A stretch of DNA of 14,232 bases from Thermoplasmata archaeon (lineage in GTDB: Archaea > Thermoplasmatota > Thermoplasmata > Thermoplasmatales > Thermoplasmataceae). The notes under the pieces are model-generated. The model was not told the DNA's origin, did not search any database, and was given only the letters and a program-made list of their open reading frames with translations. The stretch covers positions 1-14,232 of the forward strand of contig JAJZZQ010000030.1 of NCBI GenBank assembly GCA_021797525.1. The letters are read 5' to 3'. The translations under genes were made by a program, and so were the position numbers. Numbering within the stretch: position 1 is the stretch's first letter; each line of letters starts with the position of its first letter. Shown here piece by piece: positions 1,558 through 14,036 of this stretch.

Positions 1558-2468
1558 TGAAATTATTCAGAGTAGTTACTGACGAAGGACCGAAATGTGC
1601 AGTGGAACATGGAGATGCACTTTACGATATAGGTGCTATCCTGGAGAGTGACCCGCCTGACGGTTCACGCTCTTTTTACGGATGGTTTTCTTCCAATCAA
1701 CAGAAGCTGATCAAAAAGATTGGTGACGGAATTGAACAGGAGGCAGCAATCACACCTAATTCCTATCAGATCCCTGTTCATGGGCTGAACCAGATTAGAG
1801 ACTTCTATGCTTTTGAAACGCATGTCAAGAATTCCAGAGCCCTGAGAAACCAGGAGGTCCCAAAGGAGTGGTACGAGGTCCCAGCTTACTATTACTCAGG
1901 CACATCAGGGGTCATACCCAGCGGACATAACCTGAAATATCCAAGATTTTCAAAGGAACTTGACTATGAGCTAGAGGTTGCTGCAGTAATCGGAAGAGAG
2001 GGCAGAGATATACCAAGGGGTGACGTCTGGAACCATATTTTCGGATTCCTTCTTGTCAGCGACTGGAGTGCAAGAGATCAGCAGAGAAAGGAGATGGCCA
2101 TTGGACTCGGCCCATCCAAATCCAAGGATTTTGCCACAACATTCGGATACAGCCTGACTACAGCCGATGAGATCAAAGCTAAAATAAATTCTGACGGGAA
2201 GATAGTTGAATCTGTTTGGGCATATGTTAATGGGAAGGAATATTCCCGTGGAAATCTTGTGGACATGTACTGGACATTTCAGGATATCATCAGCTGGGCA
2301 TCAACTGACTGCACACTAAAACCGGGCGATGTCATAATGAGCGGAACGGTTGGGAATGGATGTATCCTCGAAAGAAGCAAATCTGGAATGAACTGGCTTA
2401 AGCCAGGAGATACCGTTGAATTCGGGTCAGATTCCATGGGGCGCTTAAAAACAGAAATAGTGGAGTGA
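1557..2468 (+). CDS. fahA: Fumarylacetoacetase-type hydrolase (FAH family)
   Basis: Likely the terminal enzyme of the operon, cleaving fumarylacetoacetate (or maleylacetoacetate) into a C4 acid and acetoacetate. A small N-terminal domain is followed by the FAH beta-roll. Metal ligands by motif: D82 (RDFYAFETHV), E138 and E140 (DYELE) and D169 (VSDWSARD). H89, seven residues after D82, matches the spacing of the catalytic His in mouse FAH, and E272 (CILE) fits the partner glutamate. KDF (190-192 region) and SGTVGNG (262-268) are further family landmarks. At 303 residues it is shorter than animal fumarylacetoacetase (about 420), like many microbial members. The ATG overlaps the hpd stop by one base (TAATG), with GAGAGG about 10 nt upstream, so translation is probably coupled. 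The exact substrate is inferred from its place between hpd and hmgA. Confidence 0.88.
   Translation: MKLFRVVTDEGPKCAVEHGDALYDIGAILESDPPDGSRSFYGWFSSNQQKLIKKIGDGIEQEAAITPNSYQIPVHGLNQIRDFYAFETHVKNSRALRNQEVPKEWYEVPAYYYSGTSGVIPSGHNLKYPRFSKELDYELEVAAVIGREGRDIPRGDVWNHIFGFLLVSDWSARDQQRKEMAIGLGPSKSKDFATTFGYSLTTADEIKAKINSDGKIVESVWAYVNGKEYSRGNLVDMYWTFQDIISWASTDCTLKPGDVIMSGTVGNGCILERSKSGMNWLKPGDTVEFGSDSMGRLKTEIVE
2462..2468 (+). promoter_or_regulatory. Shine-Dalgarno site deciding the hmgA start
   Basis: GGAGTGA overlaps the end of fahA and lies 5 nt before ATG 2474. It favours this ATG over the GTG at 2465, which would sit inside the site itself. Confidence 0.6.
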
Positions 2469-2473
2469 TTGTT

Positions 2474-3619
2474 ATGGTGTATTATGTAAGAAAAGGGAAA
2501 ATTCCTGAATTCAGGCATACCTATGACAGCAGGGACAACATTCTCAAAGAGGAACTGTTTGGGGAAGAGAGCTTTGATGGCCCGTATTCTCTGCTCTATC
2601 ACAGGACAGAACCGACGAGAGTTATATCAGTTAGTGGTGAGAGAAAACCGGAAATCTCAATGGGATTAACGGAGAACAGGCTTCACAGGCACATTAAGGG
2701 ATATGAGCTTAAGCGCTCAGGAAATTTCATCACAGGAAGGGTTGATCTTCTGGTCAACTCCAAGCTCAAGATTGGCATGCTTAAACCGGAACACAGCTCT
2801 GTAAATCTTTACAGAAATGCCTATTATGATGAGATATTTTTCATACATGAAGGTTCTGGGAAAATAACAACTCCATTCGGAAGACTGCGCTTCAGGAAGG
2901 GTGATTATCTCTATATCCCCAAGGGAACCACATACCACATGGAAAACGGGAAATCAGACACTCTGCTGTACGTTCAGAGCAGGGAGCGAGTTTCCATACC
3001 GAAGAGGTACCTAAACATTTACGGGCAGCTGAAGGAGGGCACACCATTCTATTCCAGGGACTTTGTTATTCCTGAATTCACTGAAACAGAGAAACTTGAT
3101 GGGGATTTCAATGTGTATGTAGAATATGACAATGAATTCATTATAGAGAAAAGAGACAGGACGCCATTTGACCTGGCAGGGTGGGACGGATATCTTTATC
3201 CATTTACCATCAACGTCGAGAAAATGGCCCCTATTGTTGGGAAACTGCACCAGCCTCCACCTGTGCATGAGAATTTCAGCGCCTCCTCGTTCATGATAGG
3301 TGCTTTCCTGCCCAGAAAGTTCGACTTTCATCCCAGGTCCATACCAATCTCTTACTACCACAGCAACATAGATACGGATGAGTTTCTGTTCTATTCTTCC
3401 GGGAATTTCATGAGCAGAAAGGGTATATCGCCAGAGTCTATGACTCTGCATATAAGAGGGCTAATTCACGGTCCTCAGCCAGGAGCTGTCGAAAACGCCA
3501 TCGGGAAGGAGTCGACTGACGAGGTTGCAATAATGGTTGAGGCATATGAACCACTGAAACTGACACAATCAGCAGTAAGCATGGATGACCCTGATTATAT
3601 GAAAAGCTGGGTCTCTTAG
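2474..3619 (+). CDS. hmgA: Homogentisate 1,2-dioxygenase
   Basis: Opens the aromatic ring of homogentisate to give maleylacetoacetate, using Fe(II) and O2. Numbered from ATG 2474 the protein has 381 residues. It begins MVYYVRKGKIP, the usual family opening, which together with the GGAGTGA site supports this start over GTG 2465. The bicupin fold is recognisable: GxGxxxTPFGRLRFRKGDYLYIP-like motif in the N-terminal half (about 127-149) and the catalytic region YYHSNIDTDEFLFYSSGNF, where H296 and E303 are iron ligands. The third ligand is H332 in HGPQPG. VHENF (265-269) and FDFHPRSIP are also typical of microbial members. It lies 5 nt after fahA and is the last gene of the operon. It ends flush against the convergent phosphatase gene. 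The YYHSNID type of motif marks the compact microbial form rather than the longer animal one. Confidence 0.93.
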   Translation: MVYYVRKGKIPEFRHTYDSRDNILKEELFGEESFDGPYSLLYHRTEPTRVISVSGERKPEISMGLTENRLHRHIKGYELKRSGNFITGRVDLLVNSKLKIGMLKPEHSSVNLYRNAYYDEIFFIHEGSGKITTPFGRLRFRKGDYLYIPKGTTYHMENGKSDTLLYVQSRERVSIPKRYLNIYGQLKEGTPFYSRDFVIPEFTETEKLDGDFNVYVEYDNEFIIEKRDRTPFDLAGWDGYLYPFTINVEKMAPIVGKLHQPPPVHENFSASSFMIGAFLPRKFDFHPRSIPISYYHSNIDTDEFLFYSSGNFMSRKGISPESMTLHIRGLIHGPQPGAVENAIGKESTDEVAIMVEAYEPLKLTQSAVSMDDPDYMKSWVS

Positions 3620-4192
3620 TCAGGGACCAGCCCTTACAAAACCTCCATTTTCCTTCTTAACTATCAGGTAGGAGCAGTTCTGGAATCTCTCTATAACATC
3701 ATTTCCAAGGATCATGGAATTGACAAATGCCATAACACCACCGTGTGTTACCACCCCCACCTTTTCAGTTCCGGATACGCCGGCAAGGTCTGACAGCCCC
3801 CTCAACACTCTGGCCTTAAATTCTGCAAGTGATTCTGATCCGGGAATATGGTCAAGATCGGCACTCAGTATGCTGGTCAAATGAATCCCGTACTTTTCCA
3901 CTATTCCGTAATAGTCCAGCCCGCTGATGTCGCCGCAACCTCGCTCCCTGAACTCAAATATTTTTCCTCTGTATGGTATGCCTGATGTGCCTGAGATTTC
4001 CTCTGCAGTCTGTATGGCCCTTGTCATATCGCTGCTGTAAAGAGACCCAATTTCAAGTTCTGTTGCATTTCTGCCGAATTCCCGGGCCTGCTCAATTCCA
4101 TGAGAATTTAATGGGACATCGTCTCCACACTGCCAGATCCCCTTAAGGTTGGAATCTGTTTCCCCATGCCGTATGAGAAATACTAGTGCCAT
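3620..4192 (-). CDS. Histidine phosphatase family protein (phosphoglycerate-mutase-like)
   Basis: A 190-residue branch-1 histidine phosphatase. Phosphohistidine signature RHGET at 8-12 (H9 nucleophile), SSDMTRAIQTA (53-63) with phosphate-binding R58, ERGCGDISG (83-91) with acid/base E83, and the second catalytic His in VTHGGVM (H150). The size and the short helical insert suit small-molecule phosphatases (alpha-ribazole phosphatase, cofactor-dependent mutase-like or broad-specificity sugar phosphatases); the sequence does not decide the substrate. The stop is immediately adjacent to the hmgA stop on the other strand, so transcripts from both sides must run into each other. It lies 76 bp downstream of the TenA-like gene on the same strand; a weak TTAATTA (4216-4222) is at leaderless distance, so it may also have its own promoter. 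Confidence 0.85.
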   Translation of the reverse strand: MALVFLIRHGETDSNLKGIWQCGDDVPLNSHGIEQAREFGRNATELEIGSLYSSDMTRAIQTAEEISGTSGIPYRGKIFEFRERGCGDISGLDYYGIVEKYGIHLTSILSADLDHIPGSESLAEFKARVLRGLSDLAGVSGTEKVGVVTHGGVMAFVNSMILGNDVIERFQNCSYLIVKKENGGFVRAGP

Positions 4193-4194
4193 TC

Positions 4195-4200
4195 AAAAAA
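4195..4200 (-). terminator. T-run downstream of the TenA-like gene
   Basis: Six T on the minus strand just before the phosphatase start codon, about 70 nt after the TenA-like stop. Archaeal RNA polymerase commonly stops at such runs. It is short, so read-through into the phosphatase is possible. Confidence 0.3.
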
Positions 4201-4268
4201 GTAATAAGAAAATGGTTAATTAGATATTCCATAAAATTAAGGAATTATCTATGGGATTCAACTGAAAA

Positions 4269-4964
4269 TTATTGGTCTGCGAGCCCAAGCCAGAACTTTT
4301 CTTCAAGGTCAAGTATGCCTTTGGCCCCTTTCATGAAACTGTCCCTTGCTACTGGATCATCCTTGTGGGTACCCAGTATATTCTCCATTGCCTCCTCATG
4401 GTGTTCCTCAAGTTCCCTGTGAAAAGTAAAATACCTGATGTCTGCGCCAGCGTATTCCGGATGCTTTTCCTTCCACACCTTGAAACCTGCAAGTATCTTG
4501 TCCCACATTGGTATTGCCATGTTTTCGAGCCCGAATTCTGCACCAAGAGCTTCAAAATGGTCTCCGGAGAAATATGTCCTCATTCCATCCAGCCAGCCCT
4601 TGGTTGTTCTGAGTTGCTGCCTTTTTACCATTGCAACCGGATCTATGTTCAGGCTTCTCAGGTATTGTCTGTACAGCAGCTCATGCCTCTTGTTGGGATC
4701 ATCATCACCCAACTCTGAAACCAGTATAGTTGTGAGGTTCCTTGCATCATCCTCATCCGGTGTGTTTACCAGGAGGGTTGAAAGAATGCTCGGCCACTCC
4801 CGTGTAAAATGAAAGAACTCAATAGAAAATCTCTTGAACTCATCTTCTGAAATGTCCCCTTTTGCAAATCTGTTTATGAAATCGTTATTTGTTGCATTGT
4901 GTGCTTTCACAAAGTTATATGTCTTCTTATAAAAATCCCCATCTTCGTATGTTTTCTGTTCCAT
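4269..4964 (-). CDS. TenA/PqqC-like heme-oxygenase-fold protein, putative di-metal oxygenase (CADD-like)
   Basis: A 231-residue all-helical protein of the heme-oxygenase-like fold, often annotated as a TenA-family or iron-containing redox enzyme. The arrangement fits the di-iron branch typified by Chlamydia CADD. E84 in SELGDDDPNKRHELL with H94, E147 in EFGLENMAIPMW, and a last helix FHRELEEHHEEAM containing H182, position 186 and H189, match the E...H...E...HxxxDxxH ligand pattern. Position 186 is Glu where relatives usually have Asp. CADD supplies p-aminobenzoate from its own Tyr and Lys residues; other branch members oxidise lipids or amino acids. The start is ATG 4964 with TTTATA 24.5 nt upstream on the minus strand. 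Thiaminase TenA is less likely because it uses a Cys nucleophile that I do not see (no Cys at all in the protein). The fold call is firm; the reaction is unknown. Confidence 0.75.
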   Translation of the reverse strand: MEQKTYEDGDFYKKTYNFVKAHNATNNDFINRFAKGDISEDEFKRFSIEFFHFTREWPSILSTLLVNTPDEDDARNLTTILVSELGDDDPNKRHELLYRQYLRSLNIDPVAMVKRQQLRTTKGWLDGMRTYFSGDHFEALGAEFGLENMAIPMWDKILAGFKVWKEKHPEYAGADIRYFTFHRELEEHHEEAMENILGTHKDDPVARDSFMKGAKGILDLEEKFWLGLADQ

Positions 4965-4984
4965 GCTATAGTATTACAAATCAG

Positions 4985-4996
4985 TTATAAATATTT
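4985..4996 (-). promoter_or_regulatory. TATA box for the TenA-like gene (leaderless)
   Basis: Minus-strand AAATATTTATAA; its TTTATA core (4986-4991) is centred 24.5 nt before ATG 4964. This is the same spacing as at hpd. Confidence 0.65.
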
Positions 4997-5062
4997 GATC
5001 CAATTATGACTGCGAAAATATCAGAACAGCAAAATACAATAACAGACAGATAAAAACAAAAG

Positions 5063-5068
5063 TAATAT
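5063..5068 (+). promoter_or_regulatory. Weak TATA-like box for the unknown gene at 5092
   Basis: TAATAT centred 26.5 nt before ATG 5092. It is weak in sequence, but the position matches the other leaderless promoters here and argues for ATG 5092 over GTG 5074. Confidence 0.35.
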
Positions 5069-5091
5069 TCCATGTGAGCCATGTTGAACGA

Positions 5092-5436
5092 ATGAGATTG
5101 CAGGAGGGAGATTACTTTGATCTGGTTTACTATCTTTCCGGCATGTTTGCGGTGAAACGAATGAGAGATATCCCGATGGATATATTCCAGATCCATTACA
5201 TTGGTTCGGAGATGATAACCCATCCGGGAAAAGATGAGACATATTACACTGAAGATTTCCCTGGAAAGGGGATGCAGGATCAGGTTAAATGTATCGATCT
5301 TGATGTGGAATGCCCATCCAGGAATGAAAGATTCCATGTTAAAATCAACTGGGACTATACAGATATAGAGCCAGACACAGTAACTGGAAAGGATTTTATG
5401 GATTTCCTGGACAGGTCAACATTTAGATATTTTTAG
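5092..5436 (+). CDS. Hypothetical acidic protein, 114 residues
   Basis: I do not recognise this protein. It is soluble-looking and acid-rich with many aromatic residues. It has an amphipathic opening around GDYFDLVYYLSG, a middle section rich in charged strands, two cysteines in VKCIDLDVECPS, and an aromatic C-terminus ending FRYF. There is no signal peptide or membrane helix. ATG 5092 is chosen because a TATA-like box lies at leaderless distance; GTG 5074 is an in-frame alternative that would add six residues. It precedes the FAH-family gene by 13 bp on the same strand and is divergent from the TenA-like gene, so it may act in the same pathway as the hydrolase. That is inference from position only. 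Confidence 0.6.
   Translation: MRLQEGDYFDLVYYLSGMFAVKRMRDIPMDIFQIHYIGSEMITHPGKDETYYTEDFPGKGMQDQVKCIDLDVECPSRNERFHVKINWDYTDIEPDTVTGKDFMDFLDRSTFRYF
5422..5427 (+). promoter_or_regulatory. Possible internal TATA box for the second FAH gene
   Basis: TTTAGA, in the last codons of the preceding gene, is centred 25.5 nt before ATG 5450. The ATG has no Shine-Dalgarno site (the 13-nt gap is C-rich), which makes an internal leaderless promoter plausible. Confidence 0.3.
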
Positions 5437-5449
5437 CCCATCCCTCAAC

Positions 5450-6283
5450 ATGAATATTTTCACTCTTGATTTTGGAAATGGCCAGGAGGTTTGCCTGGGA
5501 AAAGGGAAAACCATTTACCAGTTTGTTGACCGCGAAAAACGTCCTAAGGACGCCGTGGATCTGATAATGAATTACAGAAGTTATCTGGAACAGGATCTTG
5601 CAGAGATCCCACGAAAATACTCTTATTGCCCTCCGATAACTCCTCAGCAGATGTTCCTTCCTGCCAGGAACTTCAGGTCTCATTCTGAGGAGTCAGGAAC
5701 CCAGCCTCCAGAGAACCCATACTTCTTCATGAAGACCCAGAACGCACTTGTTCCCCATCATGGAAATGCCATACTGCCTAGAGGCGTTACCAGGCTAGAC
5801 TACGAAGGCGAAATAGGCATTATCATTGGAAAACGTGGAAAATACATCAAGCCGGAAGACGCTGGAGATTACATTTTCGGTTACACTGTGCTGGACGATA
5901 TCAGCATCAGGGACTTTCAGACACAGAGCCAGAAAGGTTATGGAATGGACTGGGTACTAGGGAAGAATGGGGATGGCTGCATGCCCATAGGTCCCCATAT
6001 TGTTCCCAAAGAAGATGCTGGTGATTTTAAATTCACAATTGAAACTTTTGTTGATGATAAGATGAAGCAGCATGGTTCAACGGAAGATATGATATTCTCT
6101 CCTGAGCAACTAATAGCGAGATTATCCCAGACAATTACACTCCGGGAAGGAGATCTCATCAGTACAGGGACTCCTGCTGGAGTGGCCGAATATTCATCAA
6201 AGGAGTACCTTAAGCCAGGAGACAATATTGAGATCAGCGTTAAAGGAATAGGCACTCTGAAGCATTCCATAGTTGCAGACTAG
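5450..6283 (+). CDS. FAH-superfamily hydrolase (2-keto-diacid/acylpyruvate type)
   Basis: A 277-residue enzyme of the fumarylacetoacetate hydrolase superfamily, of the acylpyruvase/fumarylpyruvate hydrolase/2-hydroxyhepta-2,4-diene-1,7-dioate isomerase kind. Family signatures: ARNFRSHSEE (72-81) with the lid H78, YFFMKTQNALV (91-101) with K95, metal ligands E119 and E121 in RLDYEGEIGIIIGK, D150 in LDDISIRDFQ, and TGTPAGVAE (239-247). The C-terminal LKPGDNIEISVKGIGTL is the standard closing strand pair. It differs clearly from the operon's fahA: it lacks the DFYAFETH motif and has the compact C-terminal core. Likely reactions are hydrolysis of an acylpyruvate or decarboxylation of oxaloacetate-like acids; the sequence cannot choose. 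It lies 13 bp after a small unknown gene and 7 bp before the ATPase gene, so cotranscription is likely. Confidence 0.85.
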   Translation: MNIFTLDFGNGQEVCLGKGKTIYQFVDREKRPKDAVDLIMNYRSYLEQDLAEIPRKYSYCPPITPQQMFLPARNFRSHSEESGTQPPENPYFFMKTQNALVPHHGNAILPRGVTRLDYEGEIGIIIGKRGKYIKPEDAGDYIFGYTVLDDISIRDFQTQSQKGYGMDWVLGKNGDGCMPIGPHIVPKEDAGDFKFTIETFVDDKMKQHGSTEDMIFSPEQLIARLSQTITLREGDLISTGTPAGVAEYSSKEYLKPGDNIEISVKGIGTLKHSIVAD

Positions 6284-6290
6284 TAATTAG

Positions 6291-8222
6291 ATGTACAGGC
6301 ACACTCCGCATATAAGAAGCAACCCGGCCATATTCTTTACCCCTGGGAATAGGGAAATAGGCCTTACCAGAAGAGGAGAAAAAGTTTATGCTCCAGATAC
6401 GGCACTGAATTCCCACATTCTCATTACCGGAGGCACTGGCACGGGAAAATCAAACATTATGAAACTGCTTGCAGCAGAGGCCTCGGAAAAGGATGACTCC
6501 GCAATTCTTGTAATAGATCCGCATGGGGATACAGCGATGAGCCTGATGTCGGCCTTTCCCCGCAGGATTATGTTTCTTCCTCTTGGAAAGTGGAATATAG
6601 GGGGTTCTGAACTAAGTATCTCCATGAATCCCATGCATCAGATTGGCCTAGATCCACACGTAACAGCTGGACTGATAAAGGATGCATTCTCAGGGAATGA
6701 AACACTTTCGCAGGGTACATGGGGGCCAAGGCTGGAGCTTGTCTTCTCATCTCTTCTCACTAAGCTTCTGGAAACAGACAGCAATGCAAGCCTTGCTGAC
6801 CTTGCAGATGTTCTGACTAACCAGAATAAACTAAGGCTTATCCTGAAGAATACAGGCGATTCCGCTTTTGCGTCCTATATGAAGATGCAGATGTCAGACT
6901 GGAAGGGTTGGTTGTCTTTTGTATCCAGTACACTTAACAAGATTCTTCCTGTAACCTCAAACCCGCTGACTTCATCCCTAACTTCCGGAAGAGAAGATTC
7001 CTTCAGCCTGGAAGATGTTTTCAGGAACAGAATGATTGTTATCCCTGAGATCTGGAACAGCGTTCTTTCAGGTGATGCATCAACTGTTCTAAGTTCTCTT
7101 TTAATAGTAAAATTCTGGGGATTCCTGTTTTCCAGATATGGAAAGGAGGTAATGAGGCTGAGAGTGTTCATAGACGAAGCTCAGTTAATACCGGAGAGCA
7201 TAATAGGAAAGATAATGACTGAGGGCCGTAAATTCGGTTTTTCTCTTACGCTTGCAACACAGCAGCTCCCTGCGAAATCCGACATTTGGTCCAGATCTGT
7301 TCTCGGAAACACCGGAAGTGTATTTCTTTTTGGAACTTCGGATAGAGACGCTGCACTGATCTCAGGTTCATTCTTCAGTGGAGGTATGGAGAAGACGGTG
7401 AAAGATGCCGCTAAAGGGCTTGTAAGAGGTGAGTGCCTTGCCTGGTCTAAATATGGGGATTCTATTTCAGGGCCCCTCTTCATCAAAGCCATGCCTTTTC
7501 CTGACAGCCCACTGGATCTTGAAACCTTCAGGTCTGAAGCTCTCGCAAAGTATGGCAGCCCTGGAAAGGAATTGATGGAGTCAGGAAATGTTGATCTGCA
7601 TGAGGAGCTTATCGCGAAATTTTCCCTTTTCATGGAGAGGAAAGGAATTCACATGGATACGGGGGTTTCAGTTGGTGGCAAAATACCAGATGGAGTGTTT
7701 CAGACTGGCGGGAGCCAGATTTTACTTGAGGTGGAGGTTTCGGATCTTGCCAGTATAAGGAGAATCTGGGACAAGATTATTAATTATAAAGGATGGAAGA
7801 AAATACTTCTCACCCCAGCAGGTTTTGGTGAACCCCTCCTTGAAAGGATCGTTGACCGGATCATGAATGTTTCCCCAATGGATAAGGACCTGATTTCCCA
7901 TTCATTGTCTTCTTTCCTTGATACAGCAGTTGCGGAATTTGATCTGAGATTCAGGCTCGTAATTCCTGGAGATAGGATGCTTCTGAATATTGATAATATG
8001 CAGTCAGGATCCATTTTAACAGGCGTGCGAAGGCACAAATACGGCGCCTTAATGGAAAAAGCACTCCGTCTCATGGTGAAGTCGGGTAGAAATCTGGCGG
8101 AAATCAGGGACATTTTTGATGGAAACCTTAACCCATCCTTGCAGGACATGCTTCCCAAGGATGTCTGCAAGAGCAGAGAGTTTATCACACTTAAGGAGGT
8201 TTATGAACTTTGCAGGAGATAG
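6291..8222 (+). CDS. HerA/VirD4-like ATPase with C-terminal PDG...ExE domain
   Basis: A 643-residue P-loop ATPase of the HerA/FtsK/VirD4 (TraG-like, type IV secretion DNA-binding) group. Walker A GGTGTGKS at 47-54, the DPHGD strand (76-80) common in this group, Walker B RVFIDEAQ (291-298) with D295-E296, EGRKFG (311-316), and the sensor-like LATQQL (321-326) followed by LGNTGSVFLFGTSDRDA (338-354). Such enzymes are hexameric pumps for DNA or, rarely, protein. After about residue 430 a second domain appears. IPDGVF (465-470), a short turn, ILLEVEVS (477-484) and a following helix resemble the PD...ExE core of nuclease-like and replication-relaxation domains. A basic helical tail follows. No transmembrane segment is evident, unlike many VirD4 proteins. 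It is 7 bp after the FAH gene without a clear ribosome-binding site and overlaps the next gene by 13 bp. The ATPase call is firm; the C-terminal domain call is tentative. Confidence 0.85.
   Translation: MYRHTPHIRSNPAIFFTPGNREIGLTRRGEKVYAPDTALNSHILITGGTGTGKSNIMKLLAAEASEKDDSAILVIDPHGDTAMSLMSAFPRRIMFLPLGKWNIGGSELSISMNPMHQIGLDPHVTAGLIKDAFSGNETLSQGTWGPRLELVFSSLLTKLLETDSNASLADLADVLTNQNKLRLILKNTGDSAFASYMKMQMSDWKGWLSFVSSTLNKILPVTSNPLTSSLTSGREDSFSLEDVFRNRMIVIPEIWNSVLSGDASTVLSSLLIVKFWGFLFSRYGKEVMRLRVFIDEAQLIPESIIGKIMTEGRKFGFSLTLATQQLPAKSDIWSRSVLGNTGSVFLFGTSDRDAALISGSFFSGGMEKTVKDAAKGLVRGECLAWSKYGDSISGPLFIKAMPFPDSPLDLETFRSEALAKYGSPGKELMESGNVDLHEELIAKFSLFMERKGIHMDTGVSVGGKIPDGVFQTGGSQILLEVEVSDLASIRRIWDKIINYKGWKKILLTPAGFGEPLLERIVDRIMNVSPMDKDLISHSLSSFLDTAVAEFDLRFRLVIPGDRMLLNIDNMQSGSILTGVRRHKYGALMEKALRLMVKSGRNLAEIRDIFDGNLNPSLQDMLPKDVCKSREFITLKEVYELCRR
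8193..8200 (+). promoter_or_regulatory. Shine-Dalgarno site deciding a TTG start
   Basis: AAGGAGGT inside the 3' end of the ATPase gene, 9 nt before TTG 8210. An in-frame stop at 8204-8206 excludes any earlier start in that frame. The next in-frame ATG is some 47 codons further on and has no such site. Confidence 0.75.
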
Positions 8223-9133
8223 CTGATCTTAAAATCTCTGATCTGAATTCAGTAGACCTGAATTTTACCCCCTTCGTCCCTTCAGACCAGGAAAATTTCC
8301 ATATCAGTTACAGGCCGGAAGGGAGCAAATGGGCTTCCATCCTGTTCATGGATATCTATAACGGACATAGACTGAGAATAAAGGAGTTCTTCATGGACTG
8401 GTTCTGTCCGGGGTATCCAAAAAGCCTTATGAAAAGCTTCGTAGACGCCTATTCAGGCCTTGAAGTAACGCAAATAAACAGTACAGTATATTTTTATGGA
8501 AAAAATTACAGAAACAGAGATTCTGTAACTTTCTATGCTTCAGGAACAACGGTTGAAATTGAGTCTGAAAGCTCATGCTCTTCAGAAGAACTTATGGAAT
8601 ATTCTGCAAGCCTCATTCCCGTAATGGGATTGAAACACAATATGGCAGGAAGCGACTTCTTTCAGAGAAGTTTCTTCTGCAGACACCAAGCAGGTGACTG
8701 GTTCGAGGATATCAGAGTATCCAGACTTTCGTGGACAGCCTTAAGTGAGGAGATATGTCTTGGAAATGCTGTTTTGAAGGGATCTGGTATTGGGAGATTA
8801 CTCCAGAACAGAAATGAACATTTAATCTGTGTTTACGAAGATACCAAGCACAACAGGGCAATCTGGATCGAATACCTGAGAGATGGATCCTCACTGGAGC
8901 ATGGGTCATACCAGTTGAGGGTTGGAAAATATCTCTACACAGATTTTAATCTTGACGGGCAGACGAAAAAATGGGCATTCAGGAAAAAGACAGGTCCATA
9001 TACTTTTCATTTTCAGATTTTGAACGGCAGAGTTACAGCGATGTTTTCACCCGGATTTGTTCTGAGCCAGGATAATATGGAGAATATGAGCAACCTGGTG
9101 GAATCCAGTCTGGTTAATGTATTTGAAAAGTAA
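8210..9133 (+). CDS. Hypothetical protein, 307 residues, partner of the HerA/VirD4-like ATPase
   Basis: I do not recognise this protein. It has no membrane helix and no signal peptide, and is rich in aromatic beta-strand-like stretches. Two regions look alike. One is around 91-138: YFYGKNYRNR, then a TFYASGTTVEIES strand, then SSEELMEYSASL. The other is around 255-303: AFRKKTGPYT, a FHFQILNGRVTAM strand, then SQDNMENMSNLVESSL. Each is strand-turn-strand-helix, suggesting an old internal duplication. The middle part holds DFFQRSFFCRHQAGDWFEDIRVSRLSW. The TTG start at 8210 is fixed by a canonical AAGGAGGT and overlaps the ATPase by 13 bp, so the two proteins are very likely made together and may form a complex. 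A role in substrate binding for the pump is a guess. No catalytic motif is evident. Confidence 0.8.
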   Translation: MQEIADLKISDLNSVDLNFTPFVPSDQENFHISYRPEGSKWASILFMDIYNGHRLRIKEFFMDWFCPGYPKSLMKSFVDAYSGLEVTQINSTVYFYGKNYRNRDSVTFYASGTTVEIESESSCSSEELMEYSASLIPVMGLKHNMAGSDFFQRSFFCRHQAGDWFEDIRVSRLSWTALSEEICLGNAVLKGSGIGRLLQNRNEHLICVYEDTKHNRAIWIEYLRDGSSLEHGSYQLRVGKYLYTDFNLDGQTKKWAFRKKTGPYTFHFQILNGRVTAMFSPGFVLSQDNMENMSNLVESSLVNVFEK

Positions 9134-9204
9134 TAGAAAACATCTCTTGTGTGACATTGATTCTATCTTGCTATGGAAAATCTGAAGGTTATCATGAAAA
9201 ATGA

Positions 9205-9213
9205 TTTTTATTA
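9205..9213 (+). promoter_or_regulatory. TATA-like box for the small gene at 9232
   Basis: TTTTTATTA; the TTTTTA part (9205-9210) is centred 24.5 nt before GTG 9232. This gives a leaderless GTG start, or a 9-nt leader if ATG 9241 is used. Confidence 0.4.
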
Positions 9214-9231
9214 CAATGCCATAATGGTAAG

Positions 9232-9489
9232 GTGTCACTGATGTATAATTGCGGAAAGATTCAACAAATCACTATACTTTATGCCTCCACCAGACCGGGT
9301 ACCTATGCAGCGGAGGAGAGAGATGTCCTTGGGCCAGATGTGTCAAAGGCTCTCTGCGAGGAAGCAAACCGTCAACAGATATCAATAGAGGAACTTATCA
9401 AGCGGAGGACTTCACGCAAGGTAGAGTCTGTGGTTATCAATTTGCCTGTTGCTGAAATTAAACCACTTAAGAAAGCACATGAAGAGTGA
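9232..9489 (+). CDS. Small hypothetical protein, 85 residues
   Basis: Not recognised. The N-terminal third is variable-looking; the middle has a protein-like amphipathic helix KALCEEANRQQISIEELIKRR (about 39-59), followed by a beta-like VVINLPVAEI and a charged tail. An overlapping frame at 9249-9455 encodes an implausible cysteine-rich product and is rejected. The start is uncertain: GTG 9232 sits at leaderless distance from a TATA-like box, while ATG 9241 has AAGGTG 6 nt upstream and would give 82 residues. Its stop is followed by a run of eight T and then by the promoter of the SIS gene, so it is probably a single-gene unit. The helix-rich small size could suit a DNA-binding or regulatory protein, but no motif proves this. 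Confidence 0.5.
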   Translation: MSLMYNCGKIQQITILYASTRPGTYAAEERDVLGPDVSKALCEEANRQQISIEELIKRRTSRKVESVVINLPVAEIKPLKKAHEE

Positions 9490-9500
9490 ATTATTTCAAA

Positions 9501-9508
9501 TTTTTTTT
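9501..9508 (+). terminator. T8 run after the small gene
   Basis: Eight consecutive T beginning 12 nt after the TGA at 9487-9489, a typical archaeal intrinsic termination signal. It lies just upstream of the SIS gene's TATA box. Confidence 0.5.
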
Positions 9509-9515
9509 GCCAAAG

Positions 9516-9521
9516 TTTAAA
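9516..9521 (+). promoter_or_regulatory. TATA box for the SIS-domain gene (leaderless)
   Basis: TTTAAA centred 25.5 nt before ATG 9544, with no Shine-Dalgarno site between. Confidence 0.65.
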
Positions 9522-9543
9522 TGAACTGCCTGATTAAGAAATT

Positions 9544-10584
9544 ATGACTGATGATCTCCCAGAGAGGAGAAATGGGCATCCGTATGTTATGTATGATATG
9601 CTGAAATCTTCAAAAGCAGGCATTCTTAAGACAATAGACATAATGGAGAAGACAGATTTTGACTTTCTTAAGCCTCCTTACTGTTTTACCGGAAATGGAA
9701 CCGCCTTCCATGCAGCAGCCCTGGGCTCACTGATTATTCCCGGCAATTCCCATGATTTTAGAGTTATGCAATCATATGAACTGGAGAACTATTCAGATTT
9801 CACCGGGACAGTTATTGGATTCTCCCATACTGGAAAAACAAAATCCACTGTGGACTCGGTTAAGAAAGCAGGAAAAACTTGCACAACAATAGGAATTAGC
9901 CATTACAATAATTCCCCACTGATTGAAGAATCCTCCATGGGGATTGTGATTGGTGATTCGCCGGATATGTCCCTCTGCAACACCAAGGCATTCTTTGACA
10001 ACTATTTTGCAGCTCTGGAAATTTCAAAAAGGATATCAGACGTGAACATAAACTCCAGAGCCCTTGCAGATCAGCTTCATTCTGTTATAAATGGAAAGGA
10101 AAACGAGGCAAAAGAGGCAGCAAAATTCATGGGCAACAGGCTCAGAAATATATTCGTCCTCGGCGCTGGTCCATCTTACTATGCAGCCAGAGAGACTGCC
10201 CAGAAATTGAAAGAGTCAACGCACATCCACGCTGAAGGGATCGAGCTGGAGGAGTTCAACCACGGTTGCACTTCTGTCATAGATGAAAGATCAGCAGTAA
10301 TAATGATCAATTCCGGCAGGGATGAGAGAAGAGCCTCGGAGATAGCCAGAGCCTGCCGTGAGGTTGGAACACGCACACTTTCAATAAACGCTGAAGGAGA
10401 TTTCAGGGTCAATATCCCGGAACCGGAAAGGATGGACTTGTTCCCTGTTCTTGCCGTAGGATTCCTGTATACTCTGTGCTATTATATGGCACTTGTAAAT
10501 GATGTGAACCCAGATCTTTTGAGATTCGAAGATAAAAAGTACCTGGACTTTGACTCCATAGTTTTCCCTCCAGGTGCTCACTGA
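9544..10584 (+). CDS. Double SIS-domain protein (GlmS isomerase-like)
   Basis: A 346-residue protein with two sugar-isomerase (SIS) domains, equal to the C-terminal half of glucosamine-6-phosphate synthase but without the glutaminase domain. HPYVMYDML (12-20) matches the GlmS hinge HPYxMYKEI-type motif. SIS 1 (about 45-165) contains FTGNGTAFHAA (48-58) and the phosphosugar-binding GFSHTGKTKST (92-102). SIS 2 (about 200-320) contains VLGAGPSYYAARETAQKLKE (205-224), then ELEEFNHGCTSVID (234-247), the counterpart of the GlmS ExxEFxHGP motif. The stand-alone form occurs in FrlB/AgaS-like enzymes and glucosamine-6-phosphate deaminases, which use or release ammonia instead of transferring it from glutamine; either is possible. 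It has its own TATA box. Its last 7 bp overlap the convergent CinA-like gene. Confidence 0.85.
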   Translation: MTDDLPERRNGHPYVMYDMLKSSKAGILKTIDIMEKTDFDFLKPPYCFTGNGTAFHAAALGSLIIPGNSHDFRVMQSYELENYSDFTGTVIGFSHTGKTKSTVDSVKKAGKTCTTIGISHYNNSPLIEESSMGIVIGDSPDMSLCNTKAFFDNYFAALEISKRISDVNINSRALADQLHSVINGKENEAKEAAKFMGNRLRNIFVLGAGPSYYAARETAQKLKESTHIHAEGIELEEFNHGCTSVIDERSAVIMINSGRDERRASEIARACREVGTRTLSINAEGDFRVNIPEPERMDLFPVLAVGFLYTLCYYMALVNDVNPDLLRFEDKKYLDFDSIVFPPGAH

Positions 10585-11342
10585 TCCTTTTTCCCAAAAG
10601 CCTTTCTGAAGAGTTCCAGCTCTTCTTTGACTATCCTGCGTGCTTCTGAATAATCTTCATTGTATGAAGATATCTCAAGCATGACACTATAACCAGAGCC
10701 GGAGCCGGAAAGTGGGTGGCTTTTAATATAAAGGCGATCTTTTAATTTTTTCATTTCCTCTTTGATGAGGGGTGCCATTTCACCCTCCATAGTTCCGGGG
10801 AATTCAAGGGATTCTTCATAATAGTGGAGATCTGCGTTCTGAAATCTTTCCCTTACGGAGTTAAATATGGCTTCCATTTCATGAGGAACACCGGGAAGGC
10901 AAAGAATATGCCTTCCACCATGTGTGATCAGGACACCAGGGGCTGATCCCACAGGGTTGAAAATTGGCTCTGCCCCATGAGGAAGTATTGCCATCTTCAT
11001 TCGCTCCTGAGTGAGCGGTATGTTCCTTGGCAACATACGCTTCCGGAGCATTTCCATAGCATCGTCGTTTTTTTCAAGAGTGAGATTAAGAGCCCTTGAA
11101 ATTGAGTCAAGAGTCATATCGTCATAGGTCGGCCCCAATCCCCCGGTTGTGATTATCAGGTCTGAATGTGAGAGTGCATCTTTAAGGGCCCATGAAATCT
11201 CAGCTGGATCATCGGAAACCGTGTATCCCCGCCTGACATGATTGCCCATTAAAGTGGATTGCCTTGCAATAAAAGTGTAATTGGAATTTGATGTGTGGCC
11301 CTTAAGGACCTCATTGCCTATTGAAATAATGGAAATTTCCAT
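10578..11342 (-). CDS. CinA/MoaB-type molybdopterin-binding-fold protein
   Basis: A 254-residue COG1058-type protein: the N-terminal domain of CinA (MogA/MoaB-like fold) without the amidase-like C-terminal domain of bacterial CinA. The opening ISIIGNE-like strand is IISIGNEVLKGHTSNSN (5-21), then TTGGLGPTYDDMT (65-77), the family signature, NPVGSAPG (129-136) and LPGVPHEM (149-156). Bacterial relatives hydrolyse ADP-ribose or other nucleotide pyrophosphates; the archaeal single-domain form has no settled role, and nicotinamide-nucleotide metabolism is a reasonable inference. Its ATG is 13 nt after the stop of a 59-residue gene on the same strand and has no Shine-Dalgarno site of its own, so the two are probably cotranscribed. 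The 3' end overlaps the convergent SIS gene by 7 bp. Confidence 0.88.
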   Translation of the reverse strand: MEISIISIGNEVLKGHTSNSNYTFIARQSTLMGNHVRRGYTVSDDPAEISWALKDALSHSDLIITTGGLGPTYDDMTLDSISRALNLTLEKNDDAMEMLRKRMLPRNIPLTQERMKMAILPHGAEPIFNPVGSAPGVLITHGGRHILCLPGVPHEMEAIFNSVRERFQNADLHYYEESLEFPGTMEGEMAPLIKEEMKKLKDRLYIKSHPLSGSGSGYSVMLEISSYNEDYSEARRIVKEELELFRKAFGKKDQ

Positions 11343-11355
11343 GTGAGGTAATGAT

Positions 11356-11535
11356 CTAGCGGTTCATTTTTCTTGCGTGTATGTCTATCTTGTCCTTAAG
11401 CTTCTTGAGATCAAATGCATCAAGGGGTTCCTTCTTTTTCTGTACCCACTTTTTCAGTTTTTCCCTGTACTGTTCATCCTTGCAGAGATCAAGTGCGTTA
11501 TTCTCAAATTTTTCAAGCTCCCTTAATTTAGCCAT
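11356..11535 (-). CDS. Small charged protein, 59 residues, upstream of the CinA-like gene
   Basis: A 60-codon minus-strand frame from ATG 11535 to TAG at 11356-11358. It is supported by a GGGAGGT ribosome-binding site 6 nt before the ATG and a TATA box further up. The protein is very lysine-rich and helical: it opens MAKLRELEKFENN, has a LKKWVQKKKEP segment near 27-37, then DAFDLKKLKDKIDIHARK (39-56). One Cys (position 18) and one Trp (30); no membrane segment. I know no family for it. It reads like a compact helical hairpin broken at Pro37. It may bind nucleic acid or a partner protein; this is a guess from charge. It lies 13 nt before the CinA-like gene, suggesting an operon. A plus-strand frame (11381-11590) across the same DNA is its antisense shadow. 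Confidence 0.75.
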   Translation of the reverse strand: MAKLRELEKFENNALDLCKDEQYREKLKKWVQKKKEPLDAFDLKKLKDKIDIHARKMNR

Positions 11536-11542
11536 TTTAAAA

Positions 11543-11549
11543 CCTCCCT
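11543..11549 (-). promoter_or_regulatory. Strong Shine-Dalgarno site of the 59-residue gene
   Basis: Minus-strand GGGAGGT, 6-7 nt before ATG 11535. It is one of the two best ribosome-binding sites in the window and a main reason to accept this small gene. Confidence 0.75.
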
Positions 11550-11584
11550 ATGATTCAGGAATGAAAACCTCAATCTTTGGGCAC

Positions 11585-11597
11585 ATATAAATATTAA
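11585..11597 (-). promoter_or_regulatory. TATA box for the 59-residue gene and CinA-like operon
   Basis: Minus-strand TTAATATTTATAT; the TTTATA core is 11586-11591. With the usual distance the transcript would start near 11563, giving a leader of about 28 nt that contains the Shine-Dalgarno site. This fits a leadered mRNA, unlike most promoters here. The box begins 12 nt past the stop of the 33-residue membrane protein gene. Confidence 0.6.
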
Positions 11598-11608
11598 TGC
11601 CGGTGCAT

Positions 11609-11710
11609 TCAAATATTCACGTTAAGAAACGCTATCAGCAGTATAACCACTATGTTAAGAGCCGCAATCAGAAGAGCGATCAAGAACTGTTTTGTCCTTA
11701 GTTCCAACAT
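11609..11710 (-). CDS. Single-helix membrane microprotein, 33 residues
   Basis: A 34-codon minus-strand frame, ATG 11710 to TGA at 11609-11611. It has a short charged N-terminus (MLELRTKQ) and then an uninterrupted hydrophobic stretch of about 22 residues (FLIALLIAALNIVVILLIAF), ending in NVNI. This is a textbook single-pass membrane helix with a positive N-terminal flank. A TAAATATAAA box lies at exactly leaderless distance (centre 25.5 nt before the ATG). The stop is 12 bp before the TATA box of the next minus-strand unit, so it is probably transcribed alone. I know no named homologue. It might be a membrane-associated regulator or an accessory subunit. The frame and promoter are seen directly; expression is inferred. 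Confidence 0.6.
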   Translation of the reverse strand: MLELRTKQFLIALLIAALNIVVILLIAFLNVNI

Positions 11711-11730
11711 TTGTATATGGTAAATATCGA

Positions 11731-11740
11731 TTTATATTTA
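11731..11740 (-). promoter_or_regulatory. TATA box for the 33-residue membrane protein (leaderless)
   Basis: Minus-strand TAAATATAAA centred 25.5 nt before ATG 11710; there is no room for a leader and no Shine-Dalgarno site. Confidence 0.6.
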
Positions 11741-11841
11741 TCCTCACTAAACTGATACTCCAAAAGATAAGGAGCATAGCAATTGATTTTTCTTAGAGGC
11801 TAAATTTGTGGATTATTCCATCTTAGGTTGTCAGGTAACAA

Positions 11842-11847
11842 TTTATT
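11842..11847 (+). promoter_or_regulatory. TATA box deciding the SMP-30 start
   Basis: TTTATT centred 26.5 nt before ATG 11871. It lies inside the longer open frame from GTG 11808, so the extra 21 codons are probably promoter DNA rather than protein. Confidence 0.5.
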
Positions 11848-11870
11848 ATTGCATTTTCACCTGTCTCCCT

Positions 11871-12716
11871 ATGAGAGAACCTGAGGTTATATTCCGATCA
11901 ATGGACAATCTGGGAGAAGGTCCACTGTATGATGATAGACTTGATGATCTATACTGGATCGATATAAATAACAGGAAGTTTCACAGATACAACCTGGAGA
12001 GTGAAGACCTGATCACATTCTCCATGCCGGGTCAGATATCCAGCTTGGCTCTGGGAAAACAGGACCTGCTATATGCTACATTGGGGCATTCAATATTTTC
12101 CATCAGAAGAGACGGTGAAAATACAGAAGTAGCGAGACTCCCTCTTAAACCTGAAGAAAGATTCAACGACGGCAAGGCGGGCCCTATGGGTGTCTATGTT
12201 GCTGGGACCATGGACAAAAACGAAATATCCCCTATAGGTTCTCTGTACACTTACGACGGGAAAATATTCAAAAAAATACTCAGTGATCTTAAAATATCCA
12301 ACGGTCTCGCATGGGATTTAAGGAGAGAGATTTTCTATCATATAGATTCGCCAGGAAAAGTGGTTAATGCTTATTCCTACACTGCAGAGATGGATCTAGA
12401 GCATCTGGGAGTATCAGCCGACCTTAGGGATGAAAATGGTGTACCTGATGGGATGTGCATCAGTGAGGATGGGCTTATCTTTGTGGCCCAATGGGGAGGA
12501 GGCAAATTATCAGTGTGGGACCCACAGGCACAGAAAAAACTGGAGGAGGTAATTTTCCCTGCTAAGAATATCACCTCCTGCTGCTTCGGAGGGAGTGATA
12601 ACAGTAAGCTTTTCGTAACCTCCGCATCTGAAGGTCCTTATGATAACTACGGAGGATCTTTATTCAGTATCGATACAGACTTCAAGGGGGGAAAACAGTT
12701 CAGGCTCAAATTCTGA
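11871..12716 (+). CDS. SMP-30/gluconolactonase family sugar lactonase
   Basis: A six-bladed beta-propeller of 281 residues from ATG 11871, likely hydrolysing a sugar lactone such as gluconolactone with a bound divalent metal. The metal-site residues known from human SMP-30 are all in place: E16 in LGEGPLYD, N144 in SNGLAWD, D194 in PDGM; the substrate-side motif ERFNDGK (96-102) is also present. Repeated blade motifs are DDLYWIDI (25-32), GLAWD and GLIFVAQWGGGKL (201-213). This length equals the usual 280-300 residues. A longer frame from GTG 11808 is rejected because its extra residues (Cys-rich, YYCIFTCL) are unlike the family and cover the TATA box. In Thermoplasmatales such lactonases fit the non-phosphorylating Entner-Doudoroff route, which is inference from known physiology. 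It stands alone on its strand. Confidence 0.9.
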   Translation: MREPEVIFRSMDNLGEGPLYDDRLDDLYWIDINNRKFHRYNLESEDLITFSMPGQISSLALGKQDLLYATLGHSIFSIRRDGENTEVARLPLKPEERFNDGKAGPMGVYVAGTMDKNEISPIGSLYTYDGKIFKKILSDLKISNGLAWDLRREIFYHIDSPGKVVNAYSYTAEMDLEHLGVSADLRDENGVPDGMCISEDGLIFVAQWGGGKLSVWDPQAQKKLEEVIFPAKNITSCCFGGSDNSKLFVTSASEGPYDNYGGSLFSIDTDFKGGKQFRLKF

Positions 12717-12739
12717 ACTTATGTATCTATAATCTATAG

Positions 12740-12745
12740 AAAAAA
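12740..12745 (-). terminator. T-run after the 32-residue microgene
   Basis: Minus-strand TGTTGTTTTTT ending about 40 nt past the microgene stop; a plausible archaeal termination signal. Confidence 0.35.
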
Positions 12746-12779
12746 CAACAGTAAAATTATAAAATTCCATCCTATACAA

Positions 12780-12878
12780 TTAATTATATTTCCCTTTCCT
12801 GAACTGTGTTTCGTCAAGAATCTTCTTTATCCTGTTCAACTCTTCATGCAATGTTTTCATAAAGTCGGACTTATTCAT
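12780..12878 (-). CDS. Putative 32-residue microprotein
   Basis: A 33-codon minus-strand frame from ATG 12878 to TAA at 12780-12782. The product is charged and helical: MNKSDFMKTLHEELNRIKK forms an amphipathic helix, followed by a basic tail. The frame stays open further upstream to ATG 13022 (80 residues). I prefer the short form because a very good TATAAA-type box on the minus strand (12902-12907) is centred 26.5 nt before ATG 12878. The upstream residues are also an unlikely mix of aromatics and Cys. A T-run downstream is consistent with a complete transcription unit. There is no known family. It is divergent from the winged-helix regulator gene, a common arrangement for a regulator and its target, but this remains a guess. 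It may also be a small non-coding RNA. Confidence 0.4.
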   Translation of the reverse strand: MNKSDFMKTLHEELNRIKKILDETQFRKGKYN

Positions 12879-12901
12879 AAAAAAGCATGTCACAGGAAAT
12901 A

Positions 12902-12907
12902 TATAAA
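12902..12907 (-). promoter_or_regulatory. TATA box of the 32-residue microgene
   Basis: Minus-strand TTTATA within ATATTTATATATTT, centred 26.5 nt before ATG 12878; strong match in sequence and distance. Confidence 0.55.
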
Positions 12908-13047
12908 TATTGTCAGACAAAAAAAATTTTGATTCATTTAATCCCGCGGCCCATTTTTCTTGTGTCTGCTTGAGAGACCTAAAATATACTGGATAGTTTG
13001 CTATATGGTATGTCGGACGCATAACTGAAAATAGAAATTACTAAGGG

Positions 13048-13056
13048 TTTATATAA
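13048..13056 (+). promoter_or_regulatory. TATA box of the winged-helix gene
   Basis: TTTATATAA about 42 nt before ATG 13095. The expected start of transcription is near 13077, giving a leader of about 18 nt that includes AGGTG at 13085-13089, 5 nt before the ATG. The box is nearly palindromic and could also act on the minus strand. Confidence 0.5.
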
Positions 13057-13094
13057 GGCTAGAGCGTTATTACTTGTTACCTACAGGTGTACAA

Positions 13095-13829
13095 ATGATT
13101 GAATCTACATACATTGACGAGAAAGAATTCATAAACAACCTGATTCTCAATATACTGCCGGAACAGAACAACTGGGAACTGAAGACAGATTATATAACCA
13201 CCGGGAAAGGAGGGGCCATTCTGAACTTTGACTACATACTCATCTCCAGCGATGGGAGTGAAAAGATTCCCATTTTGTTGCTAAAAGGTGGAAAGAATGA
13301 GAGGCTGGATCAGATCGCAGGGCTCCATCTTAAGTCCAAAGCTATTAATGCAACAAGAAAAATAGCAATTTCCAGTACTTCCTGCACACCTTATGAAAAC
13401 TTTCTGGCTGGAATATTTAACGTTAGTATCATAAGGGAGAGCTCAACTGAGCAATTATCTCTCGTGGAGTCTGAAAGAAAGACAAGAAACGACATTAGAA
13501 CTGCAAAGAAAACTGAGAACACCATAAGAAATCAGACCGTTGTTAAGAAAAAGCGCGAGTATAATGCCAGCAGAAAACGCAGGGACCGAACGAAGATCGT
13601 TCATGATATTCTGGAACTAGCTGATTCCAATGGCACACTTGGCATCACAAAGATAATCTATAGATGCAACCTGAATTACAATTCTGCCCAGAAAATTATA
13701 AACGACCTTGTTTCCAGAAAGCTTATTGAGGTAATGGCTTCAAACGGAATAAAAAAGAAATTCAGGATTACTGAAACAGGCCTTACATTCCTCAGTGACC
13801 TGAAAAAGTTGAGCTTTGTGGACAGGTAG
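13095..13829 (+). CDS. Winged-helix regulator with nuclease-like N-terminal domain
   Basis: A 244-residue protein from ATG 13095, chosen over TTG 13074 because of the AGGTG ribosome-binding site and a TATA box that leaves a short leader. The C-terminal domain (about 163-240) is an archaeal winged helix of the HTH_45 type: RDRTKIVHDILELAD, then ITKIIYRCNLNYNSAQKIIND, the wing strand, and FRITETGLTFLSDLKKL. The N-terminal domain (about 8-115) has an alpha-beta pattern like restriction-endonuclease folds: a first helix, a strand with NFDYILI (D46), a strand IPILLLKGG (59-66) where K64 sits like the K of a (D/E)xK motif but Leu takes the acidic position, then a helix and AINATRKIAISS (83-94). It is probably an inactive nuclease-like sensor or DNA-binding module. 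A basic linker (about 127-163) joins the two. Its target is unknown. Confidence 0.75.
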   Translation: MIESTYIDEKEFINNLILNILPEQNNWELKTDYITTGKGGAILNFDYILISSDGSEKIPILLLKGGKNERLDQIAGLHLKSKAINATRKIAISSTSCTPYENFLAGIFNVSIIRESSTEQLSLVESERKTRNDIRTAKKTENTIRNQTVVKKKREYNASRKRRDRTKIVHDILELADSNGTLGITKIIYRCNLNYNSAQKIINDLVSRKLIEVMASNGIKKKFRITETGLTFLSDLKKLSFVDR

Positions 13830-13858
13830 TTCCTCTATCTGATCCGCGATGTTTTGCC

Positions 13859-13864
13859 TTTTTT
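13859..13864 (+). terminator. T6 run after the winged-helix gene
   Basis: TTTTTT about 30 nt past the stop, preceded by TTTTGCC. It is a short, archaeal-type termination candidate. Confidence 0.35.
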
Positions 13865-14036
13865 AAGATCAATTTACATATTTTCCATATCATTTCTGGA
13901 AATTGGTGCTATTCCTTACTTAAATTCCGGCATTGCAACATTTTAGGATACAGGAAAAAGCATTTGGGAAGATGAAACAATCTTTCGATCATACCGGGAA
14001 AATTTAATAATTAGTAGGTTGTTTACCATCAATCCG

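Follow-up and report, generated by a model that had tools for sequence, protein, structure and literature searches.

Chromosomal DNA exchange in archaea beyond the Sulfolobales and Thermoproteales is an open question, as is what cuts the DNA that is transferred. Could a fused pump and nuclease, encoded together with a companion protein, be involved in it? Such a pair of genes lies on contig JAJZZQ010000030.1 (assembly GCA_021797525.1) of a Thermoplasmata archaeon of the family Thermoplasmataceae, of which positions 1 to 14,232 of the forward strand (hereafter the window) were analyzed. Two overlapping open reading frames (ORFs) in this window encode a protein that joins a DNA-pump ATPase to a probable nuclease domain (the ATPase-nuclease) and a 307 amino acid protein (the partner). 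An earlier note, made from the sequence alone, had described a HerA/VirD4-like ATPase with a nuclease-like C-terminal third and a dedicated partner, and had suggested DNA transfer, repair like HerA-NurA, or defence.

A pump domain of the VirD4/TrwB type

The proposed HerA/VirD4-like ATPase is supported by two Pfam families above their cut-offs, namely DUF87 (47.7 bits, cut-off 23.2) and TrwB_AAD_bind (PF10412; 39.4 bits, cut-off 20.5, residues 37-360), and an all-alpha-domain region of the TrwB type sits between Walker A (residues 47-54, GGTGTGKS) and Walker B (D295-E296). Both motifs are intact, as the earlier note had claimed, with G47, G50, G52, K53, D295 and E296 invariant across the 38 sequences of alignment A1 (37 of 120 listed relatives plus the window protein). 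Structures of HerA-type, FtsK and TrwB proteins head the list of sequence relatives in PDB, on the pump part and with a HerA structure first, while scores against the HerA equivalog models stayed far below the cut-offs (NF040819, 21.8 bits against a cut-off of 970). Several bacterial relatives with assigned names are annotated as type IV secretion DNA-binding proteins. By its sequence, the window protein carries a pump of the VirD4/HerA superfamily.

The architecture varies among relatives. In Thermoplasma-like and Aciduliprofundum-like genomes (L142:8152-8778, L143, L156, L045, L047, and L048), the ATPase gene is immediately preceded by a gene for a protein of about 200-220 amino acids, and a weak similarity (P 0.0067) suggests that this gene may encode the detached N-terminal domain of bacterial coupling-like proteins. 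The clade of genomes G030-G044 (loci L137-L139, L151, L153, and L154) has a short ATPase-nuclease of about 554 amino acids, which in the short-form loci read is directly preceded by a gene for 167-209 amino acids; several genomes of this clade also encode a second VirD4-like ATPase (about 680-709 amino acids) close to a VirB4-like match.

A predicted nuclease domain and its possible kin

The C-terminal domain is predicted to adopt a PD-(D/E)xK nuclease fold with an alpha-beta core (predicted local distance difference test, pLDDT, 89), in agreement with the nuclease-like domain proposed earlier rather than with an unrelated fold. The motifs IPDGVF (residues 465-470) and ILLEVEVS (residues 477-484) are present as described, but their spacing had been given as about 11 residues, and D467 and E480 are 13 residues apart. 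Six residues (H437, D467, E480, E482, D485, and K495) are invariant in all 42 aligned relatives (alignment A3, which omitted the truncated L005, L009 and L048, the split L044, and L045, L046 and L047). In 14 further sequences, two of them identical, which include the Thermoplasma-like, 554 amino acid and Aciduliprofundum-like clades, the H, PD, ExE and D positions are kept throughout and the K in 11. Prediction and conservation together make a good case for a probable PD-(D/E)xK nuclease.

Two families emerged as possible kin of this domain. The first is Replic_Relax (PF13814), which is listed as a MobC relaxase (PMC5357655; sources given by PMC number are cited from excerpts throughout); MOBC relaxases are related to the PD-(D/E)xK superfamily, and the active site of TraX has been confirmed by mutagenesis (PMC12857230). 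Searches of seven C-terminal pieces (from the window and six others) gave no match to Replic_Relax at E up to 10, and the family is absent among the 25 listed for the 42 members. Profile comparison with 25 Replic_Relax sequences (alignment A6, comprising 25 of the 28 loci with a Replic_Relax match; L167, L171, and L178 were left out) gave P 1.9e-4 and a probability of 47%. The 48 aligned columns bring PD, ExE/ExD, K and Y into register, and once gap-rich columns were removed the real score of 35.7 compared with a best score of 28.7 in 400 shuffles. The second is CoiA_nuc (PF06054), which matches five of the 42 members at E up to 1 (best E 8e-4); the highest score, 20.0 bits, narrowly misses the cut-off of 20.3. 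When two CoiA proteins were used for profile comparison, P was 7.6e-4 over 71 columns from the invariant histidine on. No winged helix-turn-helix match was found in the window piece, and relative L047 has a weak match to HTH_45 (E 0.01).

Bacterial relatives of the pump have a bearing on this kinship. Across 76 genomes of one bacterial class (that of G118, with genomes of 0.6-1.6 Mb), there are 17 Replic_Relax matches, and 12 of them have an ATPase of the A1 family, to which the pump relatives belong, within 3 kb. Four of the eight bacterial loci with neighbours listed (L046, L049, L053, and L054) have a Replic_Relax gene beside such an ATPase, and profile search found none in the other four (L050, L051, L057, and L065). 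Since some bacteria encode the pump and Replic_Relax as neighbours, the archaeal protein looks like a fusion.

A companion gene that tends to stay with the ATPase

The partner is a recurring companion gene without a named family. Searches of Pfam, NCBIfam and PADLOC gave no match and PHROG a weak one (E 0.0011), and the earlier note had likewise been unable to place it. Its relatives number 13 by single-sequence search and 28 by profile, the two rows that name an organism being Thermoplasmata. The model of the partner is confident (pLDDT 91.5) and predicts a two-part, beta-rich, soluble protein with no confident structural match, although weak rows suggest that it may hold two Mog1/PsbP/RseB-like halves.

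To follow the pair across the Thermoplasmatales, we surveyed 117 genomes of the order of G001, whose assemblies are fragmented, with cut-offs of E up to 1e-5 for the partner and 1e-30 for the ATPase. The ATPase is present in 77 genomes and the partner in 54, with both in 53, the partner alone in one and the ATPase alone in 24 (Fisher p 3e-13, uncorrected for ancestry). The two genes are kept together, within 3.1 kb on one contig and always codirectional, in 36 of the 53 genomes with both, and on different contigs in 17. They lie within 150 bases of each other in 28 genomes, in the order ATPase-partner in 12 and partner-ATPase in 16. In a tree of the ATPase (53 rows; truncated, split and bacterial rows were left out), the 15 partner-first rows make up one side of a branch (support 99/97) and 10 of the 11 ATPase-first rows form another group (100/99). 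The eleventh is L021, from a complete genome (CP009479.1), where one gene lies between the ATPase and the partner. Genomes G100 and G104 have the ATPase and no partner match.

These data bear on whether the pairing is fortuitous, the ATPase-nuclease acting alone and the partner serving an unrelated housekeeping function. The 24 of 77 ATPase genomes without a partner match and the 17 with the genes on different contigs would fit such a reading, and they also qualify the description of the partner as dedicated, of which the tendency to stay with the ATPase stands. However, only one of the 54 partner-bearing genomes lacks the ATPase, and the adjacent genes come in two opposite orders that fall mostly into separate clades of the ATPase tree, which makes a fortuitous pairing very improbable. 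As judged from these genomes, the link is real but not strict. In addition, ATPase-nuclease paralogues occur as pairs in three genomes: of L008 and L013, only the former has a partner beside it, both L006 and L015 have one, and neither L014 nor L026 does.

Both ORFs, their motifs and their overlap are borne out in the window (Table 1). The TTG start of the partner lies within the ATPase gene, behind the canonical signal reported earlier, and AAGGAGGT, the likely ribosome-binding site, is found 9 bases before it. This stretch is also kept in the two closest relatives, L001 and L002, a conservation that is confounded because it also encodes conserved residues of the ATPase. The 13-base overlap is retained in L001 (GTG start) and L002 (TTG start); a competing ATG at 8203 is gone in L001 and retained in L002. 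For the pump domain, the ratio of nonsynonymous to synonymous substitution (dN/dS) is 0.08 (window against L001 only); the C-terminal domain has values of 0.10-0.19 and the partner of 0.15-0.17 (three pairs each, dS with L002 being near saturation), and these low ratios indicate that all three are constrained beyond chance.

A third possibility raised earlier is defence, in which the ATPase-nuclease would degrade invading DNA in the manner of DUF4297-HerA. Defence by an ATPase and a nuclease as two components is an established phenomenon (PMC11291478), and the ATPase is matched by the PADLOC model mad8 (7.4e-17) and by several for HerA (best 2.2e-9), but the best matching stretches are confined to residues 22-405, i.e., the pump, while the partner is unmatched. 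Together with the clustering of gene arrangement on the ATPase tree and with scanned neighbours among which no defence genes were recognized, this leaves defence a decidedly unlikely role.

A VirB4-like and pilin-like apparatus in the same order

A TraG/TraD/VirD4 ATPase (CSP5_0791) and a VirB4 cluster (CSP5_1185-1189) have been reported in Cuniculiplasma (PMC5155288). Gene numbers and positions indicate that this organism is probably our genome G053 and that CSP5_0791 is probably the ATPase-nuclease gene. The locus had been thought possibly undescribed, which holds in part: an ATPase of the TraG/TraD/VirD4 family is already in print, whereas the excerpt of PMC5155288 does not mention the nuclease domain or the partner.

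In G053 (1,157,404-1,160,764), a VirB4-like ATPase (631 amino acids, two membrane spans) and a seven-span protein are encoded with a 92 amino acid two-span protein, which has a weak conjugal pilin-like match (E 0.009, below cut-off), and with a convergent gene for an 84 amino acid two-span protein. The pilin-like, multi-span and VirB4-like genes stand in the same order in the eight loci read (G053, G001, G002, G003, G004, G049, G100, and G105; L214:12405-15765, L228-L234), picked from the 77 genomes with a VirB4-like match (E up to 1e-8, of 117). VirB4 is split in some of them, and the small two-span gene in convergent orientation can be clearly recognized everywhere except in G049. The cluster appears to resemble the Ced/Ted DNA import systems, for which the transferred single strand has been proposed to come from HerA-NurA (PMC9905601). 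A VirB4-like match and the ATPase-nuclease occur together in 59 genomes, VirB4 alone in 18, the ATPase alone in 18 and neither in 22. In 17 of the 18 VirB4-only genomes the ATPase matches are all weak (E no better than 3e-11) and mostly cover Walker A stretches of ORFs about 520 amino acids long; the remaining genome has none.

Proposed function and alternatives

Taking the domain order, the predicted nuclease fold, the invariant site, the partial partner linkage and the apparatus genes in the order as its basis, we place DNA exchange ahead of repair and defence, a reasoned guess that we rate at a little short of even. The window protein would be soluble and probably ring-forming, a DNA translocase of the same type as the type IV coupling proteins VirD4 and TrwB. 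Tethered to it would be a PD-(D/E)xK nuclease domain that depends on metal and uses a D...ExE active site. Either the nuclease would receive its DNA from the pump, or it would open the DNA on which the pump then acts, and the 307-residue partner would be a dedicated accessory subunit. Chromosomal DNA would be processed in this way for cell-to-cell exchange through the VirB4-like, multi-span and pilin-like (Ced/Ted-like) apparatus encoded elsewhere, with the ATPase-nuclease as a coupling protein fused to a relaxase-like nuclease; ring formation, cutting, partner binding and the exchange role are what we infer from the observations above. A more specific proposal, which is tentative and on balance doubtful, is that of an archaeal counterpart of the relaxosome, in which a fused pump and relaxase-type nuclease, with a new accessory subunit, serve an unrecognized Ced/Ted-like system of many Thermoplasmatales. 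If this is true, the single strand would have an alternative source to HerA-NurA in the fusion of pump and relaxase-like nuclease, and the question of cutting would become testable with one purified protein and one deletion.

Several observations weigh against a role in exchange. The window protein has no transmembrane segment (highest 19-residue hydropathy mean 1.54), unlike classical coupling proteins, and the bacterial relative L046 does have one (2.69). Foldseek returned no match under E 0.001 for either the ATPase-nuclease or the partner model. By sequence comparison, the links to Replic_Relax and CoiA are both under curated thresholds; in a first control with 100 block shuffles of the Replic_Relax alignment, one reached an unexplained 141 against a real score of 35.9, and with eight Replic_Relax sequences instead of 25 the probability was 2% (P 0.02). 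The apparatus genes are not adjacent to the ATPase-partner pair, and their co-occurrence with the ATPase-nuclease (Fisher p 0.0009) is uncorrected for shared ancestry. The count of 77 includes weak VirB4-like matches, and each gene occurs without the other in the 18 genomes given above, 14 of the ATPase-only genomes being from G030-G044. Finally, no oriT is known, and DNA nicking is putative.

The HerA-NurA pair itself, to which the locus had been likened, was rejected as its identity. NurA is found in 68 of the 117 genomes, and in G001-G004 it is encoded separately, away from the ATPase-partner locus and on one contig with a HerA-sized match no more than about 1 kb away (HerA-sized refers here to a length of about 520 amino acids, and not to the HerA model); moreover, the partner has no Pfam match.

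A broader repair reading is that of a second HerA-NurA-like machine for end processing, in which translocation would feed broken or stalled DNA to the fused nuclease. HerA proteins have an N-terminal HAS barrel, for which a Walker A motif that begins at residue 47 leaves no room, and the pump domain is TrwB-like, with bacterial relatives that adjoin relaxase-type genes; in addition, G001-G004 already encode NurA beside a HerA-sized ATPase elsewhere. On the other hand, the ATPase superfamily is common to HerA, a HerA structure is the top PDB sequence match, and the locus is chromosomal, with a recurring neighbourhood and purifying selection. The ATPase is also widespread in the order (77 of 117 genomes), and none of the 15 genomes G030-G044, which mostly have a short ATPase of 540-560 amino acids, is among the 68 with a NurA match. 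We regard repair as rather unlikely.

Genomic neighbourhood

The pair lies at a chromosomal locus, as proposed in the earlier note. Genes of the fumarylacetoacetate hydrolase (FAH) family immediately precede the pair in loci with either gene order, and in the window the FAH gene may be co-transcribed with the pair. The family of the 120 amino acid protein (cluster c3) is present in 26 of the compared loci. Recurring neighbours include the FAH hydrolase, haem-oxygenase-like, phosphoglycerate-mutase-like (by sequence reading) and MoCF genes, and the scanned neighbours are mostly metabolic.

Table 1. Features of the pair and of the two genes upstream of it (window coordinates).
Feature	Position	Strand	Details
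120 amino acid unnamed gene, cluster c3	5074..5436	+	Upstream of the FAH gene; no Pfam match
Fumarylacetoacetate-hydrolase-family (FAH) gene	5450..6283	+	Ends 7 bases before the ATPase
ATPase-nuclease ORF	6291-8222	+	643 amino acids; ATG start
VirD4/TrwB-type DNA-pump ATPase domain, residues 1-400	6291..7490	+	Pfam, invariant columns, hydropathy
C-terminal PD-(D/E)xK-like nuclease domain, residues 401-643	7491..8219	+	
Nuclease-domain residues	H437 at 7599, D467 at 7689, E480 at 7728, E482 at 7734, D485 at 7743, K495 at 7773		
AAGGAGGT, likely partner ribosome-binding site, inside the ATPase gene	8193-8200	+	Sequence
Partner gene	8210..9133	+	307 amino acids; TTG start; 13-base overlap with the ATPase gene

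Elsewhere in the window, positions 472-3619 and 5450-6283 hold a gene of the glyoxalase/dioxygenase superfamily (Pfam), two genes of one FAH-hydrolase family (one assigned by Pfam, the other by clustering) and a gene for a 384 amino acid protein; at a guess, this cluster is perhaps involved in aromatic-acid degradation. A gene at 13074-13829 encodes a 251 amino acid protein with a C-terminal winged helix (Pfam HTH_45), which scores 54.6 bits against the Sso10a chromatin-protein family, a little below the cut-off of 60.

Comparison with known systems

The open-access literature, which was the scope of our search and was covered in excerpts, yielded no description of the ATPase-nuclease fusion or of the partner (subscription papers were outside this scope). 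The closest comparison for the pump is with type IV coupling proteins (VirD4/TrwB/TraD), with which it shares the P-loop pump and the TrwB-type all-alpha region (PF10412 above cut-off). PF12696 reaches only 20.4 bits on the window protein against a cut-off of 22. An N-terminal transmembrane anchor is present in most type IV coupling proteins (PMC7431656), whereas the window protein has none, carries a fused nuclease and has no type IV secretion system genes at its locus.

For the nuclease domain, MOBC relaxases of the Replic_Relax family line up with it at PD, Ex(E/D), K and Y, and a conserved H precedes these positions, ahead of the aligned block. They are encoded by genes beside the bacterial pump relatives, whereas the window nuclease is fused, and no winged-helix match was found before its core. 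The CoiA nuclease domain is alike over a stretch of some 70 residues and shares the succession H, PD, Ex(E/Q)xS, Y, but at the third acidic position the window family has E where CoiA has Q.

Three systems invite comparison at the level of function. HerA-NurA is likewise a pump with a nuclease, and its ATPase is of the same superfamily, but the window nuclease is fused and of another fold, NurA being RNase H-like (PMC9905601). Thermus TdtA, of transjugation, is an FtsK/HerA-type ATPase without a secretion signal, and a nuclease of its operon is needed for efficient DNA donation; unlike the window pair, it is encoded on an integrative element, and its nuclease is separate and NurA-like (PMC5365140). 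For the archaeal Ced/Ted DNA import systems, no coupling protein or relaxase is described in the excerpt of PMC9905601. The genomes surveyed here also have pilin-like, multi-span and VirB4-like genes of this kind, with the ATPase-nuclease and its partner at a separate locus.

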